Virus record (IMG/VR): IMGVR_UViG_3300035670_000111
Coordinates: 1-64,000 of that record
Length of the DNA: 64,000 nt
Source: a virus
Reading direction: 5' to 3' (one strand)
Positions within the stretch are counted from its first letter, which is position 1; each line of letters starts with the position of its first letter. The notes under the pieces are model-generated. The model ran no database searches. It saw nothing but the letters and a program-made list of their open reading frames with translations, and had not been told where the DNA came from. Shown piece after piece: positions 406 through 52,451 of this stretch. A program made the translations under genes and the position numbers.

Positions 406-2427
406 TTAATTAAACTTTATTTCACAGGCGTCCGTTGTGCAATAGGCCTCTCCTGATGCATCCAACGCGTTGCCCTTGTAGATAGGCGATAGGTCAATAG
501 CTTTAAGTTTACCGACGTAATTATTGTACGCCTCCTCAGTAATTTCAGTATAAGGTTGCTGAGGATATACATCGTTAGCTTTTGGAAGAAAGCTCACAGT
601 CTTTAGTCTTCCCTCGTACATATGCAAAATAGTGCCGATATGTCTAGCCTCGGTCTCCTTGTCAAAACTTATAGTGACTGATACCGAGTTGTCGGCCCAC
701 TCTGATTGGGCGAGCGCAGCAAGTTCGGCCTTTTCAAATATAGATACAGTCTGTTCTGGTCGTACCGGAACGGACTTAATCGGGAAGTAAACAACCGATG
801 TATTGTCTGGATCCGTCACAGAATCTTCTACCGTGTATTTGGCTTTGATAAACAACGGAAGCATAGGGTCAGACTTTGCAAACCGGATTGCTCTAAGAAC
901 ATACTCTCCGCCAATAGGCCAGTGGACTCCGGGAGTTTCTCCGGCAAGTATGGAGACAGTACCGGAAGGCTTAACGCTTGTAGTCTTAATGGACTCTCTT
1001 ACGCATAGCCATTCGGAGTAAACCTCATCCCATTTTTGTACTTCCTGATACCCATTATCCAACCAGTCTCTCAACTTTGGAAGGCCCTTGGTATCAGCGA
1101 AAGCCGCCAAGCCTGAAACTGAACAACCAATGCGACGATTGCGTTGCATAATTGCGTTGGTATTGGGCCAATGTGTTGGTATAAGAGTTACAGTCTTTGC
1201 ATACAAATAGGCGAACTTTAGGGTACGCAAATAATCCTTAATATCTGTGTGGCGATTGATGTAGGTCTCTACCAAAGTACAGCATTCGTAAGATTCTAGA
1301 GTCTGTTCAGCGCAGGGGTTGTATCCCGCAGCGCGATAGTCCTTGTTGTTTGCCGGATCTTTTAGACGTCCGTACTTTCTAGATACATCTAGCCATATGA
1401 AACCAGGCTCACCGTTCAAAGCAATAGCCTCTACGAATGGGGTATAGTCCATACCTACTGTAGCCTCGAGAGAGTTATTGCTCATCCAACCCCAGCCAGG
1501 ATTCTGTGGGTCGTAGGAGTTTCTCTCAGGGAAGGTCTCTGGATTCTTTAAATTAACAAAATCCATATCGGTAGGCTGACCCAAAGCAAGCTCAGCTGAG
1601 CGTCGTACATTGCCCGAAACCACACATACACCGATTAGGTTTGCCACATCTACAATGTCTTTGGTGGTTAGTTTCTCATTGGCACGGCCTTCAAAAATCT
1701 TTTTGATTGACCTATGTAGTCTCTCAAGAGGCTCGGATCCAGCTGCAGTTCCTCCAAAAGTTTTAATTGGAGTACCGGCTGGACGTACCAAAGAATAATC
1801 AAAGCCATAGATTGGCTGATCCGGCTTTAGGTAAGAGTTTATTAGGGTGGCTACAGACTCAACCCATCCTTCTCGGGTATCTGCCACAACAATGGTGACC
1901 TCATCGCCTGATGGGTCATAGATGGAGAAATCTTTATCGGCACCCTTGGTATCAAATCCAACTCCAACTCCAAGCATTGAGGCTTCCATCAAGAATACGA
2001 ATGGGGAAGATGGGTCAGCCTTTGTCATATCGGAAGTAGATACGAAGGCGCAGTTTTGTAGGGCGGCAGAGTTTCTCTGCTCCATGACGAATGGAGTACC
2101 CATCATCCAAAGCCCACGTCCGGGTGGAGTCCATTTCAAATTAAATAATCTATCGAAGGCCTCTTGAGCGGATGACTGGGCTTGTTGTCCGTTCCAAGGT
2201 AGGCGGTTAGTCTTGCAGTGATCTTTCTGAATCGAATACATACCCTCAATTACTCGACGGCATACATCAGACCAGCTTTCTTTGCTTCCATCTTCTTTCA
2301 AACGAGAGTAAGTTCTCATGAAAGTTATCTCGCCTACAGAGTTGCCTCCAGCATCTGGGTATCCCCAAGGAACTTTCTTATCTTTGTATGAAGCAACAAA
2401 ATCTTCTGTGAGACGAAATGAAAACAC
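406..2427 (-). CDS. nrdJ: Adenosylcobalamin-dependent (class II) ribonucleoside-triphosphate reductase
   Basis: Makes deoxynucleotides from ribonucleotides using adenosylcobalamin. The 673-residue length and layout match the monomeric class II enzyme typified by Lactobacillus leichmannii. Visible active-site residues are C126 (NCAFVST), the thiyl radical block C372 and E374 (NPCAEQ), C383 eleven residues after C372, and the C-terminal redox pair C663-x4-C668 close to the end. All key cysteines are present, so the enzyme should be functional. GTG start at 2427 with GAAAGGA upstream. It supplies dNTPs for the phage replisome encoded at 13-29 kb. The thioredoxin-like protein at 9291-9566 is a plausible reductant for C663/C668 (inference). 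Confidence 0.95.
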   Translation of the reverse strand: MFSFRLTEDFVASYKDKKVPWGYPDAGGNSVGEITFMRTYSRLKEDGSKESWSDVCRRVIEGMYSIQKDHCKTNRLPWNGQQAQSSAQEAFDRLFNLKWTPPGRGLWMMGTPFVMEQRNSAALQNCAFVSTSDMTKADPSSPFVFLMEASMLGVGVGFDTKGADKDFSIYDPSGDEVTIVVADTREGWVESVATLINSYLKPDQPIYGFDYSLVRPAGTPIKTFGGTAAGSEPLERLHRSIKKIFEGRANEKLTTKDIVDVANLIGVCVVSGNVRRSAELALGQPTDMDFVNLKNPETFPERNSYDPQNPGWGWMSNNSLEATVGMDYTPFVEAIALNGEPGFIWLDVSRKYGRLKDPANNKDYRAAGYNPCAEQTLESYECCTLVETYINRHTDIKDYLRTLKFAYLYAKTVTLIPTHWPNTNAIMQRNRRIGCSVSGLAAFADTKGLPKLRDWLDNGYQEVQKWDEVYSEWLCVRESIKTTSVKPSGTVSILAGETPGVHWPIGGEYVLRAIRFAKSDPMLPLFIKAKYTVEDSVTDPDNTSVVYFPIKSVPVRPEQTVSIFEKAELAALAQSEWADNSVSVTISFDKETEARHIGTILHMYEGRLKTVSFLPKANDVYPQQPYTEITEEAYNNYVGKLKAIDLSPIYKGNALDASGEAYCTTDACEIKFN

Positions 2428-2480: not shown

Positions 2481-3962
2481 TTATTCTAAAGAATCGGAGA
2501 TGATTTTAGTCGTTTGTTCCTCGTTTAGCCCGCCATCCGGAAGCTGTTTTAGGGTATTGGCACGGTCTCCAAACAAGGCTGACAGTACACCGCCAGAACT
2601 TTGACGCTCTACGGTCATGCGTACAAATTCTTTGTTCTCCTCCAACTCCTTTACTTGTTTTACAATCTTGAACAAACGGTCAATTTCTTGACCCGTATTT
2701 GGGTCAGGGTAACCACCGTTTACCTCCTCTGCAAATCGAGAAAACGCAACTCTGGCGCCTTGCATCTCGATTATTGCATTCAGTAAAGCCTTTAATTGTT
2801 CCTTTGTTTTTACCTCAATTGGTAGGTTAAAAGCACAGGCTGAATCAGGCTTCATGGCAGGACAATTAGCCGCCACGAAACAGGTATTGCACTGACGTAA
2901 AGATACAGATGCGTTCTCGATAATCGAGGCATCTTTGATGACATCTCGGCCGGCCTCATCCTTGTCAATAACCGTCTTGGATGTCATAGAAAATACGGGT
3001 AGAGTACGCATTTCTTCAGGGGATCTGCCCTTTATTTCAACAGATTGTTTCCGCACCTCTAGGGCACTATTATCAGGTCCGATACCCTGTGTTTCCGCAG
3101 AACCTGGGTCATCCCTATCAGTGCTGTTATCTGATAACAAGACGCCTCCCTTTTTAGTTAATTGTTGTTCAAGCTGCAAGTAAGACCAAATTGCTAATTT
3201 TGTAACTTCATTGCTGTCATCATCTAGGATTAGTTGAAAATCTAGTCCAGCTTTTTCTATTACGGCTTTATACCTAGGTCGTGCCTGGTCTTTCATCTTC
3301 TTTTGATATCTGACCAGCTTAGTTCCATCCCAGACTATAGTCTCGCCACGCATCATTGGTGAGAGCCATGCTAGGGTGCTAGCGGTCTCCAGAGGCACCT
3401 GTCGAAGGTTATCAGGGGTGGCGCAGGCCAAGCCATGGAATGAGGCTCCGTACTGGGATTTGAGGGCTCTAGCCCTTGCTGAGAGGGTCACATCGTTATT
3501 GATGGTCTCTCCCAGAATCCCAATATGAGGATAGGTTTGGGCCAGGGACATAAGGGCTGGATGGCCTAGTTCGGGGTGCCAAACAGGCATGAACCTATCT
3601 ACGCCAAAGTCTTCCCAGAAAGTCTTTCTTTGTTCATTGATCCAGACAGATCCTAGGCCTTTGGCGTCTAATTCCACGGCCATATAAATTTTATCTTCGT
3701 TGATTGCTACCCAGTCTTCGTAGTCGGCAGCATAATCCTCAAGCTCAGCTTGAGATAGGGATTCTTTATTTAAATGATAGCCGCCGCCATCCACATAGAT
3801 CCGAACATCGTCTGGGAAGCGCTCAGAGAGCAGGTAATCCTTAGTTTTAGGTAGGCCACGCTTCATCAAACGCCAGAAATTGACGCCTATATGCTTGACT
3901 CCAGCCTCTATAAGAAGCTTTCTATGGGAAGGGACTTCGCCTCCAAGGAAGACTAGATCCAT
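2481..3962 (-). CDS. TGT/DpdA-like barrel protein with C-terminal cysteine cluster
   Basis: 493 residues from ATG 3962, chosen because it forms a TAATG overlap with the upstream gene and follows AGGTGGGA; a GTG nine bases earlier is possible. The N-terminal 220 residues follow the pattern of tRNA-guanine transglycosylases and phage DpdA: IYVDGGGYHL resembles the TDSGGFQ base-pocket block, ETINND follows an IGILG strand, and HGLACATPDNL precedes a TLAWLS segment. At the usual nucleophile position (as in SVDSTSW) this protein reads TASTLAW, so the Asp is not obviously kept. The second half carries C358, C361, C367 and C376, a likely metal or Fe-S site, and a helical tail. Base exchange in nucleic acid is an inference. 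It is the last gene of the tight operon with the HAD-like and nucleotidyltransferase genes. Confidence 0.5.
   Translation of the reverse strand: MDLVFLGGEVPSHRKLLIEAGVKHIGVNFWRLMKRGLPKTKDYLLSERFPDDVRIYVDGGGYHLNKESLSQAELEDYAADYEDWVAINEDKIYMAVELDAKGLGSVWINEQRKTFWEDFGVDRFMPVWHPELGHPALMSLAQTYPHIGILGETINNDVTLSARARALKSQYGASFHGLACATPDNLRQVPLETASTLAWLSPMMRGETIVWDGTKLVRYQKKMKDQARPRYKAVIEKAGLDFQLILDDDSNEVTKLAIWSYLQLEQQLTKKGGVLLSDNSTDRDDPGSAETQGIGPDNSALEVRKQSVEIKGRSPEEMRTLPVFSMTSKTVIDKDEAGRDVIKDASIIENASVSLRQCNTCFVAANCPAMKPDSACAFNLPIEVKTKEQLKALLNAIIEMQGARVAFSRFAEEVNGGYPDPNTGQEIDRLFKIVKQVKELEENKEFVRMTVERQSSGGVLSALFGDRANTLKQLPDGGLNEEQTTKIISDSLE
3124..3140. repeat. Palindrome, copy 2, inside the TGT-like gene
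   Basis: CTGTTATCTGATAACAA repeats 16 bases of the palindrome at 2455-2471 exactly, about 650 bases away and inside coding sequence (linker region between barrel and cysteine cluster). An exact 16-base match is not expected by chance in a window of this size, so a shared binding site or a copied segment is likely. Confidence 0.55.
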
Positions 3963-4423
3963 TATTCCCACCTATTTAAATTATCGTCCAAAAGAATCTT
4001 TGCTCTGAGCTGCTTCTGGGCATCTAATTCTTCTTTTAGCTCTGACCACGGGCGTGCTTCACGTTTTCTTCTTGTAAATCCAGGCTTGGCAAATAGGATT
4101 GTGGTTACTCCAGAGGCTATAGCAGAGGCGCAACGGTCCACGTCACAGTCTATAAACAGTTCTATATTTCCTGAAGATCTAGCTAGCTTTAGCTGACGTA
4201 GCCTTAGATCTTGACCTTCGTAAGCCAATCTATTGTCATAGAGCTCTGCATAACCAGTTAGTAAGTTTGCCCGTAACCAATGCTCGGCCTCTTCAGATGA
4301 CCCATCAGTTGCCAGAGCAACTCTATAGGTAGCCGCCATCGTCCTGAATAGTTTTAGGCCTTCGTGTATCGGATCGCCAACTTCAGTTCTTAATACGCCG
4401 TCTATTGAAATTAAAACCGTCAT
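3962..4423 (-). CDS. HAD-superfamily-like protein lacking the nucleophilic aspartate
   Basis: 153 residues. The start LISIDGVL matches HAD motif I (normally hhhDxDGT/V), followed by a strand-turn ALATDGS like motif II and a late ELFIDCDVDRC strand like motif IV. The first Asp of DxD, the phospho-accepting residue, is Ser6 here (codon TCA in the DNA), while the second is kept. The protein may therefore bind but not hydrolyse phosphate. Its ATG overlaps the TGA of the nucleotidyltransferase gene by four bases, and its TAA touches the ATG of the TGT-like gene, so the three are translationally coupled. Alternative: a divergent nucleotidase or polynucleotide phosphatase. Confidence 0.6.
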   Translation of the reverse strand: MTVLISIDGVLRTEVGDPIHEGLKLFRTMAATYRVALATDGSSEEAEHWLRANLLTGYAELYDNRLAYEGQDLRLRQLKLARSSGNIELFIDCDVDRCASAIASGVTTILFAKPGFTRRKREARPWSELKEELDAQKQLRAKILLDDNLNRWE

Positions 4424-5340
4424 GGTTTAGTAGTGGCTGCCCTCCGTATCAGGGTCTCTGTGTCAGGTAGCTCTATACCGTAGGTGTCTAGTTGTTTTTC
4501 TTCATCATTTAAATCTTTATAATCTTTAATTGCTTTTAATGCGTGAACAACCCCGGACTTCTTGCCAGCTTGCCACCGGTAGTTATTGAAGTCAGAATAG
4601 CCGCCGCCGATCTTGCTGAAGGCAACTTTACGTCCAGCATGGATATCTTCATAAAAAGCTACAGCTTGATCTACAGCTAGTTGAAGTCTACGCTCTGCGT
4701 TGATTCTATAAGCCTCGTTTGATGCAGAAGCTTTGACGTCAGATAACGCTTGGGTGTATCTGTTGACCAGCTCCATGCCAGTTTCATAATCTTTTTGAAC
4801 TCGTTGTTCCCAAGCCCTTGAGTATGGGATAGATGGGGTTCTATCTGGTTCTACAGTCCAGGAATCAGAAATTAAATCATAGGCAGCATAAGGATTTATG
4901 TCTCGTATATCTGTTTGAGGATTTACGTAGTAAGTTAGTTCGTAGCCTTCCCAATTTTTGGTGTTAGGCATTAAAGAGTTGTAGAAACCCTCATTAAACA
5001 TCTTGGCAATTTCATCATCAGAAAGGCCAGCGTATTCCTGGTTGTATTGTCTAAATACTGGGTAGACAATGCCTACCAAACAATCTAAATCACCAGGATC
5101 TCTAGAAGCAGACCATTGATACGACACACCAGAACCTGCTAACCAAACTTTGGTCCACTTTTCAGGCATGCTGTATCGAACGCTTAGATGCTCGAATAAG
5201 ATCCTCTTTATTGCGTTTCTAACCCAAGGGCGTAGAGTTTTTCCTATAAAGATTCTCGGATCGAGCTCTGTCTCTGGTCTACTAAAGTACGAGGTGGAGC
5301 TTTGCTCCACGTTAACTTCAGAAAAACGATCCGTATCCAT
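4420..5340 (-). CDS. Nucleotidyltransferase (pol-beta superfamily-like)
   Basis: 306 residues. Residues 66-86 hold the signature of this superfamily: WLAGSG (G69, S70), then DPGDLD with D84 and D86 as the metal-binding pair. The region after it is helical and has a late KIGGGYSDF segment. Such proteins transfer a nucleotide to RNA, protein or small molecules; the substrate cannot be read from the sequence. It opens the tightly coupled operon with the HAD-like and TGT-like genes, which suggests a joint role in nucleic acid or nucleotide modification (inference). The ATG at 5340 lies five bases after the stop of the upstream small gene. Confidence 0.75.
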   Translation of the reverse strand: MDTDRFSEVNVEQSSTSYFSRPETELDPRIFIGKTLRPWVRNAIKRILFEHLSVRYSMPEKWTKVWLAGSGVSYQWSASRDPGDLDCLVGIVYPVFRQYNQEYAGLSDDEIAKMFNEGFYNSLMPNTKNWEGYELTYYVNPQTDIRDINPYAAYDLISDSWTVEPDRTPSIPYSRAWEQRVQKDYETGMELVNRYTQALSDVKASASNEAYRINAERRLQLAVDQAVAFYEDIHAGRKVAFSKIGGGYSDFNNYRWQAGKKSGVVHALKAIKDYKDLNDEEKQLDTYGIELPDTETLIRRAATTKP

Positions 5341-5607: not shown

Positions 5608-6189
5608 CTATTCATATGCGCCAGCTGCTTTACGCATCTGGGTTACAACGTGGGTTTTTACTGGACAAAAGTCGCACAAGTATACGTTTGTACTTGCAGA
5701 CTCTGCTGGCATTGGTAGCCCAGCTTCTTTTCTTTCCGCGTGAGTTTTAGGGATCAATCTCTTTTTAGAGTCTCTCCAATCTGAACAACCGGCTTGAGGC
5801 CGTAGATGTTCAGAATAACACTTCATTGCATCTTCATAGAAAGTTGCTTTTGTTGTGTAGTAATCTGGATCTATATCCGCTAAACCACCGCCAACTCTGG
5901 TTCTGATATTTTTAATAATCTCTTTTCTAAACTTCTCTTGTGACCAGAGCTTTACTCCAATCTTAGATAAGAAACCTGTGTGAGGTATGCCCGCGCTGTT
6001 GTGTTTTTCTATAGTTAATTCTAAAAATACATCGTCGTCTGGGTTACCCTCAAAGTCTGGAAGCTCTTCGATAGTCTTACAGTTGTAGCAATAAAGCAGA
6101 CGAATCTTTGGGCCCTCATCTCGGACCTCTACATACTCACCGCTTTGATCGGCAGGACCGCCGCTATTTCCTAAAATTGGGATGCTCAT
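5608..6189 (-). CDS. Zinc-ribbon-like hypothetical protein
   Basis: 193 residues with two spaced cysteine pairs, CYNC near residue 34 and CDFC near residue 172, which could close one zinc site, and a further Cys in MKCYSEH and AGCSDW. The middle part is charged and mixed alpha/beta. The start ATG lies directly after a hairpin that contains its GAGAGGG ribosome site (6192-6213). The gene lies eight bases before the next small gene. No family is recognised. Confidence 0.75.
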   Translation of the reverse strand: MSIPILGNSGGPADQSGEYVEVRDEGPKIRLLYCYNCKTIEELPDFEGNPDDDVFLELTIEKHNSAGIPHTGFLSKIGVKLWSQEKFRKEIIKNIRTRVGGGLADIDPDYYTTKATFYEDAMKCYSEHLRPQAGCSDWRDSKKRLIPKTHAERKEAGLPMPAESASTNVYLCDFCPVKTHVVTQMRKAAGAYE

Positions 6190-16163: not shown

Positions 16164-16481
16164 TTATTTCTCCTGAGTTTCTAGCCACTCGTCGAGTGAT
16201 AAACCTTTCTTTTGGTACTTGCGCTTCATAGCATTTCGTTCTCTGTGGCTCATGCCACCAAAGATTCCATGAAGCTCATCGTTTTGTATCGCTTCTTTTA
16301 AGCATTCCTTGCGTACCGGGCACGGTGGACGACCGTCTCTACCCCAGCATATTGCTTTAGCTCTGTCAGCGATTGGCTTGTATAACGCTTTGTCTCTCGG
16401 TGGAAAGAAGATCTCGGTGTCTTCGCCACGACACTTCGCATCATATCTCCAAGCCCAGGGAAGACCATCCCTGTTTTCCAA
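16164..16481 (-). CDS. WhiB-family regulator with widened cysteine spacing
   Basis: 105 residues. WhiB features: C17 after WRYDAK, EIFFPP, then AKAIC (C45), CPVRKEC (C54, C60), and HGIFGGMSHRER matching the G(V/I)WGG turn. The central spacing is C-x8-C-x5-C instead of the usual C-x2-C-x5-C because of an inserted WGRDGRPP-type stretch. It should bind a [4Fe-4S] cluster and interact with the principal sigma factor. TTG start after GGAG, immediately following the stop of the upstream gene. It strongly indicates an actinobacterial host. Confidence 0.88.
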   Translation of the reverse strand: MENRDGLPWAWRYDAKCRGEDTEIFFPPRDKALYKPIADRAKAICWGRDGRPPCPVRKECLKEAIQNDELHGIFGGMSHRERNAMKRKYQKKGLSLDEWLETQEK

Positions 16482-25275: not shown

Positions 25276-25513
25276 ACTTCCTTCTATGGGATCTAAGTCT
25301 CTGACGTTCTCTCGGGGTTGTGGCGCCCCATATTCCGTCCAGATCCGCATTAGATATCGCGTAGTCGAGGCAGTCAGAGATAAGAGGGCACTGATTACAG
25401 ATAGCTTTAGCAGCGTTAACTTTAGCCCGAGCAGTGTAATCTTCCGGAAAAAATAATTCCGGATCTTCTTTTTTACAGAGCTGACGGCCATCATACGGAT
25501 AATGAAGATCCAT
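25256..25513 (-). CDS. WhiB-family regulator, canonical spacing
   Basis: 85 residues from ATG 25513 (GAGG just upstream; a TTG nine bases earlier is less likely). Cysteines C13, C39, C42 and C48 have the standard C-x2-C-x5-C spacing; ELFFPE and DGIWGATTPRERQ complete the WhiB signature, and the basic tail RLRSHRRKY should contact DNA. Second WhiB of the phage, set between primase-side zinc ribbon and DnaB. Its start lies within the end of dnaB (overlap 23 bases). Confidence 0.9.
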   Translation of the reverse strand: MDLHYPYDGRQLCKKEDPELFFPEDYTARAKVNAAKAICNQCPLISDCLDYAISNADLDGIWGATTPRERQRLRSHRRKYEKVYS

Positions 25514-51052: not shown

Positions 51053-51394
51053 CTATGCTACCTCAGAACCAAATGCCTGGAATGTAAGGTTTGCTGTAGA
51101 TGCGACAACAGTGATCGTATCTGAAGCAGACAGGGTAACTCCAAGGGTAAAGGTGGTAGTAGTGTTAGCCGGGATAGCGGCATCGTAAGCAAGATACTGC
51201 TTGTTATCCAGGGCAGCGTTATCCTCACGGATAGCTATACGGTAGGTTGCTGCGGAGGTTCCGCGATTACAAACTACGATGGTAGATACCACAGCAGCGC
51301 TTCCCGCAGTAGAGGAGACAGCATACAGTTGGCTTCCTCCAGATACGTTGGCTGCTGGGGCAACCTGACCTAAAATTTTATAAGTCGTCGCCAA
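51053..51394 (-). CDS. Small beta-rich structural protein, TTG start
   Basis: 113 residues. TYKILGQVAPA, then AVSSTAGSAAVVSTIVVCNRGTSAATYRIAIRED and a late FTLGVTLSASDTITVVAS, typical of small phage virion proteins (DUF-like head or fibre decoration). TTG start at 51394 with AAGGAG seven bases upstream; overlaps the glycosyltransferase stop by 17 bases. Confidence 0.8.
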   Translation of the reverse strand: MATTYKILGQVAPAANVSGGSQLYAVSSTAGSAAVVSTIVVCNRGTSAATYRIAIREDNAALDNKQYLAYDAAIPANTTTTFTLGVTLSASDTITVVASTANLTFQAFGSEVA

Positions 51395-52451
51395 GAGATT
51401 GCTCCTTCGAGTAGAAAGCTAGATTCGCTGTAAGGCGCGGATCATTTGGGTTCAATTCTACGGCTTTAGTCCCGTATTGAACTGCCTTATCTGACAAACC
51501 TAGGCGATACGCCGCAATTGCTGCATAATCCCAGGGATCTGATCCCCAGGCAAAGTCTTCGCATAAATACTCTAGGGGCTTTTCCGTTATTTCTAATGCG
51601 TTTTCTGCCGCATCTAGGCAGTCAAACCAGCGGTTGTTTTCATAGTAAAGCTTGGCTAGCTCTACATACCCCTCTCTACGATCAGGAGCTTCTTCTACTG
51701 CTTTTTTTAACCAGTCTTCTCTTTCAACAAAGTCTTCCATCATTTTGGATATATACCTCATAGACGCCGCTCGTTCGGGTTTCCATACCGCTTTTGGTAA
51801 GGAAAGATGTCTCTTAAATTCCTCCACTGCTTCTGCAAAACGCCCATAAAAGTATAGTTCTCTAGCGTGATAGAAGGCGTTTCTATCGTCGTAGGGATCT
51901 TCTTTTACCGACTGAGCTAGCAAAGGAAAGTATTGAGACCTAGGCTTTGTGTTATCTGCGTGATGGTGGATTTCTAAACCTATCCAGCTTTGGACCTCAT
52001 CTATGCGGTCAGAGACCAATACTTCGTGTACAGGGTGCTTCCACCTATAGCCATGTCTACGGTGGATCTTATCTCCACCGTATTGCAGGCCTGGACTTCC
52101 ATCTATATTCCAATTCCATGTATATTGGTATCTAGGGCGAGTAACGTATTTATCGATAGATTCTAAATGCGCTCGCCACCCAGGAACTAGTACCTCATCC
52201 ATATCAAGAGCAATACATAGATCTATATCATCAGGCAATACAGCAAGCGCAGCATTACGGGCGTCATCAAAACGCCAAGGTTTTACTGAAATTGATACCA
52301 CATTTATACCAAGTTTCTTAGCTGCTTTAACTGTGGAGTCGGAAGATCCGGTATCAGCTATGAGAAGATAATCAGCTTCTTTTGCTGACTCATACCAGGG
52401 CTTTACAAACTGTTGCTCGTTTAACGCGATAGTGTAGATCGCTATCTTCAT
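51378..52451 (-). CDS. Family 2 glycosyltransferase with helical repeats
   Basis: 357 residues. The GT-A core has IAIYTIALNEQQFV at the start, LIADTGSSDST (D33), and ALDMDEVL (D83-x-D85, metal binding). Residues 190-350 form TPR-like helical hairpins (FYHARELYFYGRFAEAVEEF, GYVELAKLYYENNRWFDCLDAAENAL). It may glycosylate fibre proteins or host cell-surface components. Placed inside the fibre region, it may alter receptor recognition (inference). Confidence 0.88.
   Translation of the reverse strand: MKIAIYTIALNEQQFVKPWYESAKEADYLLIADTGSSDSTVKAAKKLGINVVSISVKPWRFDDARNAALAVLPDDIDLCIALDMDEVLVPGWRAHLESIDKYVTRPRYQYTWNWNIDGSPGLQYGGDKIHRRHGYRWKHPVHEVLVSDRIDEVQSWIGLEIHHHADNTKPRSQYFPLLAQSVKEDPYDDRNAFYHARELYFYGRFAEAVEEFKRHLSLPKAVWKPERAASMRYISKMMEDFVEREDWLKKAVEEAPDRREGYVELAKLYYENNRWFDCLDAAENALEITEKPLEYLCEDFAWGSDPWDYAAIAAYRLGLSDKAVQYGTKAVELNPNDPRLTANLAFYSKEQSLGDDL

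Follow-up and report, generated by a model that had tools for sequence, protein, structure and literature searches.

Why would a virus keep, in one compact block, two proteins that resemble enzymes and lack catalytic residues, side by side with a third that retains its own? The question is raised by three overlapping genes in the window analyzed here, a stretch of 64,000 nucleotides at the start of a virus record of 88,239 bp (IMGVR_UViG_3300035670_000111). The genes encode a nucleotidyltransferase-like protein (NT), a HAD-like protein and a TGT-like protein, and a sequence-only reading had regarded them as a modification or anti-defence unit, with binding or regulatory roles or a new chemistry as possible consequences of residue loss. 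The analysis below leads us, with middling confidence, to view the trio as a conserved core module whose centrepiece is a DpdA retired from catalysis ("pseudo-DpdA"), retained for nucleic-acid binding together with a dead HAD and an NT whose active site is intact. The argument draws on homology, residue loss, selection, synteny, absence of preQ0 genes and a shared Cys4 domain, all of them computational results.

A fixed gene block in viruses of Actinobacteria

The window encodes a contractile tail (tail sheath, baseplate), a DnaB helicase, a primase, a DNA polymerase and a class II ribonucleotide reductase (RNR). The head, portal and TerL genes lie past its end, and TerL is found at ~73.3-74.9 kb of the record, distant from the trio. 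Because two WhiB genes are present, the phage can be considered an actinobacteriophage; WhiB was also detected in Streptomyces phage BRock and in 9/9 relatives tested, and was absent from the Bacteroidota-type contig L099. The GC content (~44%) and the relatives suggest that the host is a low-GC freshwater actinobacterium.

Additional observations were made in passing. A short plus-strand ORF (132-404) adjoining the RNR gene has a long poly-Ser/Arg-Ser tail, and a gene at 51378-52451 is beta-1,4-glycosyltransferase-like (PHROG 13126, E 9e-117). A small gene near TerL (L090:12417-12977, ~75.4-76.0 kb of the record) belongs to PHROG 3292 and has a C-terminal part that looks KTSC-like by eye. A gene for an Hsp20-type heat-shock protein (PHROG 432, E 3.5e-39) was found in a phage record at L091:11258-11707.

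The trio is transcribed in the order NT, HAD, TGT-like (Table 1). The overlaps by which the sequence-only reading had joined the genes were confirmed in position, ATGA at 4423/4420 between NT and HAD and TAATG at 3964/3960 between HAD and TGT-like, and each of the three genes is real. For the TGT-like gene, ATG 3962 is the preferred start; the listed GTG at 3971 gives 3 residues more.

Table 1. Position of the trio, its sequence motifs and associated genes in the window.
Feature	Position	Strand	Evidence or remark
Class II (B12-type) ribonucleotide reductase	406..2427	-	next gene after the trio in freshwater relatives
Pseudo-DpdA, TGT-like barrel plus Cys4 domain, 493 aa	2481..3962	-	PHROG 887, AF2, Foldseek
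Helical region (EMQ..RV.F...GGYPDPN..EIDRL)	2643..2813	-	conserved; after the Cys cluster
Cys4 cluster CX2CX5CX8C (Cys358, 361, 367, 376)	2835..2891	-	invariant in alignment
TGT-like TIM barrel domain, residues 1-270	3153..3962	-	AF2, DpdA profile match
DpdA nucleophile-position codon (Ser195; Asp in SVDSxSW of intact DpdA)	3378..3380	-	alignments
DSG-type Asp (Asp58 in VDGGGYHL)	3789..3791	-	kept here, variable in freshwater relatives
HAD-like protein, 153 aa, motif I ISIDGVL without nucleophile Asp	3962..4423	-	BRock gp38 identity, motif tallies
HAD nucleophile-position codon (residue 6, Ser)	4406..4408	-	alignment
NT-like protein, 306 aa, first gene of the trio	4420..5340	-	motif, AF2, BRock gp39
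NT motif G69-S70 ... D84-L85-D86 (306-aa numbering)	5083..5136	-	alignment
Cys-rich protein o193	5608..6189	-	upstream member of the block; conserved
WhiB genes (two)	16227-16451 and 25295-25486		

The same three genes are found in the same order in the Streptomyces phages BRock (gp39-gp38-gp36) and GiJojo (gp178-gp179-gp181), with identities in the 28-36% range: 36% between NT and BRock gp39, 28% between HAD and BRock gp38, and 33-34% between the TGT-like protein and its counterparts in both phages. These loci differ from the window in that the RNR gene is not adjacent and one extra basic protein lies between HAD and TGT; their TGT-like proteins retain the DSG Asp.

A scan of viral contigs yielded 80 loci, nearly all with the arrangement o193-NT-HAD-TGT and usually with RNR next. 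When NT was used as the seed, HAD and TGT were present in 77/79 loci, and in the other two the contig ends before TGT could be reached. Streptomyces-type sequences retrieved 48 further loci, which together with five loci from bacterial genomes (Terracoccus, Nonomuraea, Herbidospora, Saccharothrix, Streptomyces) form a high-GC set of 53; o193, HAD and TGT are present in 52 of them, and a detectable NT in 40. Freshwater contigs, Streptomyces phages and elements integrated in Nonomuraea and related bacteria thus have the order (Cys-protein)-NT-HAD-TGT in common. In freshwater phages, the block has small basic proteins on one side and RNR on the other, outside the structural cluster; in Streptomyces phages, its neighbour is the endolysin gene. 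TerL queries, which may miss divergent sequences, detected no TerL close to the module in the loci examined.

Every relative with enough sequence carries the trio as a nearly invariant core block. Since purifying selection (see below) and synteny extend over well over 100 loci, chance can be ruled out. Many viruses of Actinobacteria share a fixed trio in which two members lack catalytic residues and the NT-like partner keeps its own. The upstream protein o193, with conserved cysteines C34, C37, C124, C135, C172 and C175, accompanies the trio in freshwater as well as high-GC actinophages and is probably part of the same system.

The TGT-like protein is a DpdA relative that has lost its nucleophile

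The TGT-like protein matches PHROG 887, 'queuine tRNA-ribosyltransferase', over its full length (E 2.7e-60), and profile comparison with hhalign matches its barrel to intact DpdA (E 2.2e-13). An AF2 model, whose inputs were the window and IMG/VR sequences only, shows a barrel with pLDDT mostly 80-93 over residues 1-270; confidence is low for most of residues 272-380, Cys region included. Foldseek against viral structures (BFVD) matched phage queuine tRNA-ribosyltransferases at ~E 1e-8, in agreement with the TGT-like fold proposed earlier, and Foldseek against the PDB gave TIM barrels, with no TGT among the 50 matches listed. Sequence searches of the PDB gave nothing significant, either with the single TGT-like protein or with profiles of all three families, and no Pfam family exceeded the cut-off for the TGT-like, HAD-like or NT-like protein.

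As the sequence-only reading had noticed, the protein keeps VDGGGYHL and lacks the nucleophile Asp, which is Ser in the window and is never Asp in the relatives. At the nucleophile position (column 198 in 496-aa numbering), 68 freshwater-type and Streptomyces sequences show S51/T14/A2 and one gap, and the high-GC set has Ala or Ser almost throughout. Altogether, across ~120 loci, no member that could be read has the Asp, whose place is taken mostly by Ser, Thr or Ala. The motif reads SVSSTSW, SVASTSW or TASTLSW in the actinophage group and is intact (SVDSxSW or SCDSSSW) in the DpdA of que-carrying phages (9g, Bipper, BS162P1, contig L099).

Other pocket residues have a different history. The Asp in VDGGGYHL corresponds to the Asp of DSGGF-type motifs. 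Its column reads D43/H11/E9/S3/T1 in the first set, so that His, Glu, Ser or Thr is found in 24/68, and the Asp is retained in 49/53 high-GC sequences. This distribution indicates that the nucleophile was probably lost before the pocket decayed. The Asp of the E-x-D motif is retained in 57/68 sequences of the first set.

In a tree that included eight comparison sequences, five of which showed the intact motif on direct reading, the nucleophile-less sequences all fall to one side of a branch supported at 100/99. Their closest sampled relative is the two-gene DpdA of Bacteroidota phages, a placement with weak support (83/63) and long branches. The TGT-like gene has dN/dS values of 0.04-0.06 against close relatives, a rough estimate with dS near saturation, and the Cys/helix part has the same range; values this low mean strong purifying selection. 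Transglycosylase activity has very probably been lost in pseudo-DpdA.

Comparison with the DpdA of Enterobacteria phage 9g, Mycobacterium phage Bipper and Arthrobacter phage Sonali shows how far the kinship goes. The window protein has in common with them the TGT-type barrel, the DSG-type motif and the HGxxxT...W motif that frames the nucleophile; unlike them, it has the nucleophile replaced and carries an extra Cys4 plus helical domain. The phages differ too: the window phage has NT and HAD as fixed partners and lacks preQ0 genes. The record that contains the window lacks QueC, PTPS/QueD and FolE, as do 12 relatives, BRock, GiJojo and two Gordonia phages. These genes are present in phages with intact DpdA, except for FolE in MT835482 and QueC in Bipper; hence, preQ0 pathway genes in the same phage are usual for DpdA, not universal. 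A modification unit is difficult to reconcile with the lack of genes that intact-DpdA phages encode.

A decayed HAD-like protein and an intact nucleotidyltransferase-like partner

Absence of the first Asp in the HAD-like protein, also pointed out earlier, turned out to be a family trait: the first Asp of motif I is missing in 53/56 members, as well as in every member of a second set (n=52) that could be scored. The remaining 3/56 homologues (L039, L073, L081) keep DxDG and lack the first Asp of motif IV. The active site has decayed, therefore, by different routes. Assignment as a putative HAD is based on these motifs and on weak HAD matches of the profile in the PDB (E 0.15).

The NT-like protein presents the opposite situation. 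The DxD that it was said to keep is invariant: G68, S69, D83, D85 and E133 (alignment numbering, one lower than the 306-aa numbering) are found in 54/54 homologues, and the pattern hG[GS]...DxD...acidic in 37/40 of a second set. The AF2 model has a pLDDT of 93, with strands at 63-68, 83-91 and 133-139. Matches of the model in the PDB are weak, low-probability NT matches, with CdnE, CCA-adding enzyme and AadA among the top ones, and DUF6932 is the only weak hint from Pfam. With its active-site residues intact, the protein is predicted to be probably active.

The Cys4 domain links pseudo-DpdA to large 'terminase small subunits'

The most constant part of the TGT-like protein is its C-terminus, made of the CX2CX5CX8C cluster and the helices that follow. 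In Bacteroidota phages the Cys4 protein is encoded by a separate gene directly after intact DpdA, and the Cys spacing of the window protein is also found in the partner protein P0013 of such a phage. The barrel and the Cys4-helix module recur in the two-gene system (BS162P1, contig L099, MT835482), next to each other and in the order seen in the window. The system differs from the window in having separate genes, an intact nucleophile Asp, and genes for QueC and a QueE-like protein close by; these phages gave no NT homologue. The order in contig L099 is QueC-DpdA-Cys4-152 aa-QueE-like (L099:1866-5324), with QueC confirmed and QueE assigned by eye.

Two side observations concern this system. 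The Cys4 protein of contig L099 seems to be a companion of intact DpdA not described before. In the human faecal phage MT835482.1 (L089:2518-4716), where the DpdA gene is followed by genes for the Cys4 protein and a QueE-like protein, DpdA has an intein-like insertion inside the catalytic SSDSS/TTW motif.

A Cys4 cluster with identical spacing was also found at the C-terminus of large 'terminase small subunits' (TerS; PHROG 6902 and 16015), present in over 100 records of Gordonia, Rhodococcus and Tsukamurella phages and located directly 5' of TerL wherever inspected. The Cys4-helix region and the TerS C-terminus were matched by hhalign with E 4.4e-7 (reversed control, 0.047), and Foldseek against BFVD retrieved the TerS of Gordonia phage Jumbo (E 3.9e-5, 566 columns) with a low TM-score. 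The TerS N-terminus gave only P 0.0036 against the pseudo-DpdA barrel, with no improvement (0.0079) when 17 sequences were used (hhalign); profile comparison of the same region with intact DpdA gave no match. These TerS resemble the window protein in Cys4 spacing, in the helices that follow and in total length, and differ in an N-terminus whose divergence leaves a TGT barrel there no more than a candidate, in lying directly 5' of TerL, which the window gene does not, and in the lack of NT, detected in none of the phages that carry the large TerS. In the Gordonia literature, the name small terminase rests mainly on position upstream of TerL (PMC4524720). Some genes near TerL in the window phage were checked, and none was recognised as a small terminase; as such proteins diverge fast, the argument is a weak one.

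In Rhodococcus phage ReqiDocB7, the large TerS appears as two ORFs (gp001 and gp002; L111:152-1548) with the break at the Cys cluster, which admits two explanations, either a frameshift or a real split.

A speculation, which we consider rather doubtful, is that a DpdA was domesticated for DNA recognition in packaging through loss of the nucleophile and fusion with Cys4, and that the large TerS belong to the same TGT lineage, in a further-decayed state.

A proposed role and its alternatives

Since the TGT-like and HAD-like proteins lack catalytic residues, the trio probably binds nucleic acid rather than modifying it. This agrees with the binding or regulatory roles envisaged in the sequence-only reading, with the addition that the loss is family-wide, ancient and under selection. 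The following scenario can be proposed. A DNA-acting TGT barrel would have joined the Cys4 domain, which is encoded by a separate gene beside intact DpdA in Bacteroidota phages. The barrel would have lost its nucleophile Asp, probably in a single event at the root of the actinophage clade, so that base exchange by the TGT mechanism would no longer be possible. Pseudo-DpdA would have been retained as a nucleic-acid-binding protein, perhaps in a complex with the dead HAD-like partner and the intact-site NT, and its most likely job would be that of an adaptor recognising or holding phage DNA.

Because the Cys4 domain is shared with TerS, genome packaging in the manner of a small terminase is the leading specific guess, a tentative one. 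Against it are the facts that the window gene is not beside TerL, that the TerS phages lack NT, that the TerS N-terminus gives only the P values stated above against the barrel and no match to intact DpdA, that the Cys region is modelled with low confidence, and that TerS names are largely positional. In the literature searched, which covered few subscription journals, we found no description of this DpdA degeneration or of the link to TerS.

Several alternatives have to be weighed. The trio might be an anti-defence or DNA-decoy module that shields DNA, or blocks a restriction or base-modification-dependent system, by binding and without chemistry. Descent from a family of restriction-evading enzymes (PMC6884629) and purifying selection fit such a function. 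We consider it unlikely, however, as typical anti-defence genes are patchy and these form a nearly invariant core block; no known defence-related neighbour was identified. The 'anti-defence unit' of the earlier reading meets the same difficulty, as the block is not an accessory island. A similarly low probability can be given to a virion or assembly component, such as a DNA-binding protein associated with the head or tail and with no part in packaging initiation: core conservation and the vicinity of the endolysin gene in Streptomyces phages speak for it, and the location of the freshwater block, outside the structural cluster, against it.

A third alternative takes its model from QTRT2, the non-catalytic subunit of eukaryotic TGT, in which the TGT fold has been retained and catalysis lost. 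Pseudo-DpdA might be a partner or regulator of host TGT or tRNA, with the NT and the dead HAD acting on tRNA or holding it. A TGT fold without nucleophile, the DSG motif and the acidic residues downstream of it that the high-GC clade retains, and the membership of tRNA-acting enzymes in the NT superfamily are compatible with this proposal. We find it quite unlikely, as the 64-kb window contains no tRNA gene, the pocket Asp itself decays in freshwater relatives, and the nearest relatives are phage DpdA of the DNA type. QTRT2 forms a tRNA-directed heterodimer with an active TGT, and no active partner was found in the phages.

Continued activity of the protein as a transglycosylase or glycosidase, by way of a displaced nucleophile or a different chemistry, is very unlikely. 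The DSG Asp of most high-GC sequences and the E-x-D Asp of most sequences in the first set might be taken as vestiges of activity; however, pocket residues degrade in a large clade and genes for substrate synthesis are lacking. Tolerance of Ser, Thr, Ala and Gly at the nucleophile position also makes the 'new chemistry' of the sequence-only reading unlikely. Decaying pseudogenes, which loss of catalytic residues might bring to mind, can be dismissed on account of the low dN/dS of the TGT-like gene, the intact frames and the invariance of non-catalytic motifs in well over 100 loci.

Under the reading that we favour, a retired DpdA kept as a binding protein, the 'queuine tRNA-ribosyltransferase' or dpdA-like label is misleading, as it would wrongly predict deazaguanine in the DNA or tRNA of many actinobacterial phages. 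The family offers a natural series that goes from an intact enzyme in two genes to a fusion without nucleophile and to further decay of the pocket. It also connects, through sequence and in a way open to testing, a DNA-modifying enzyme system with a protein associated with packaging and named largely from gene position.
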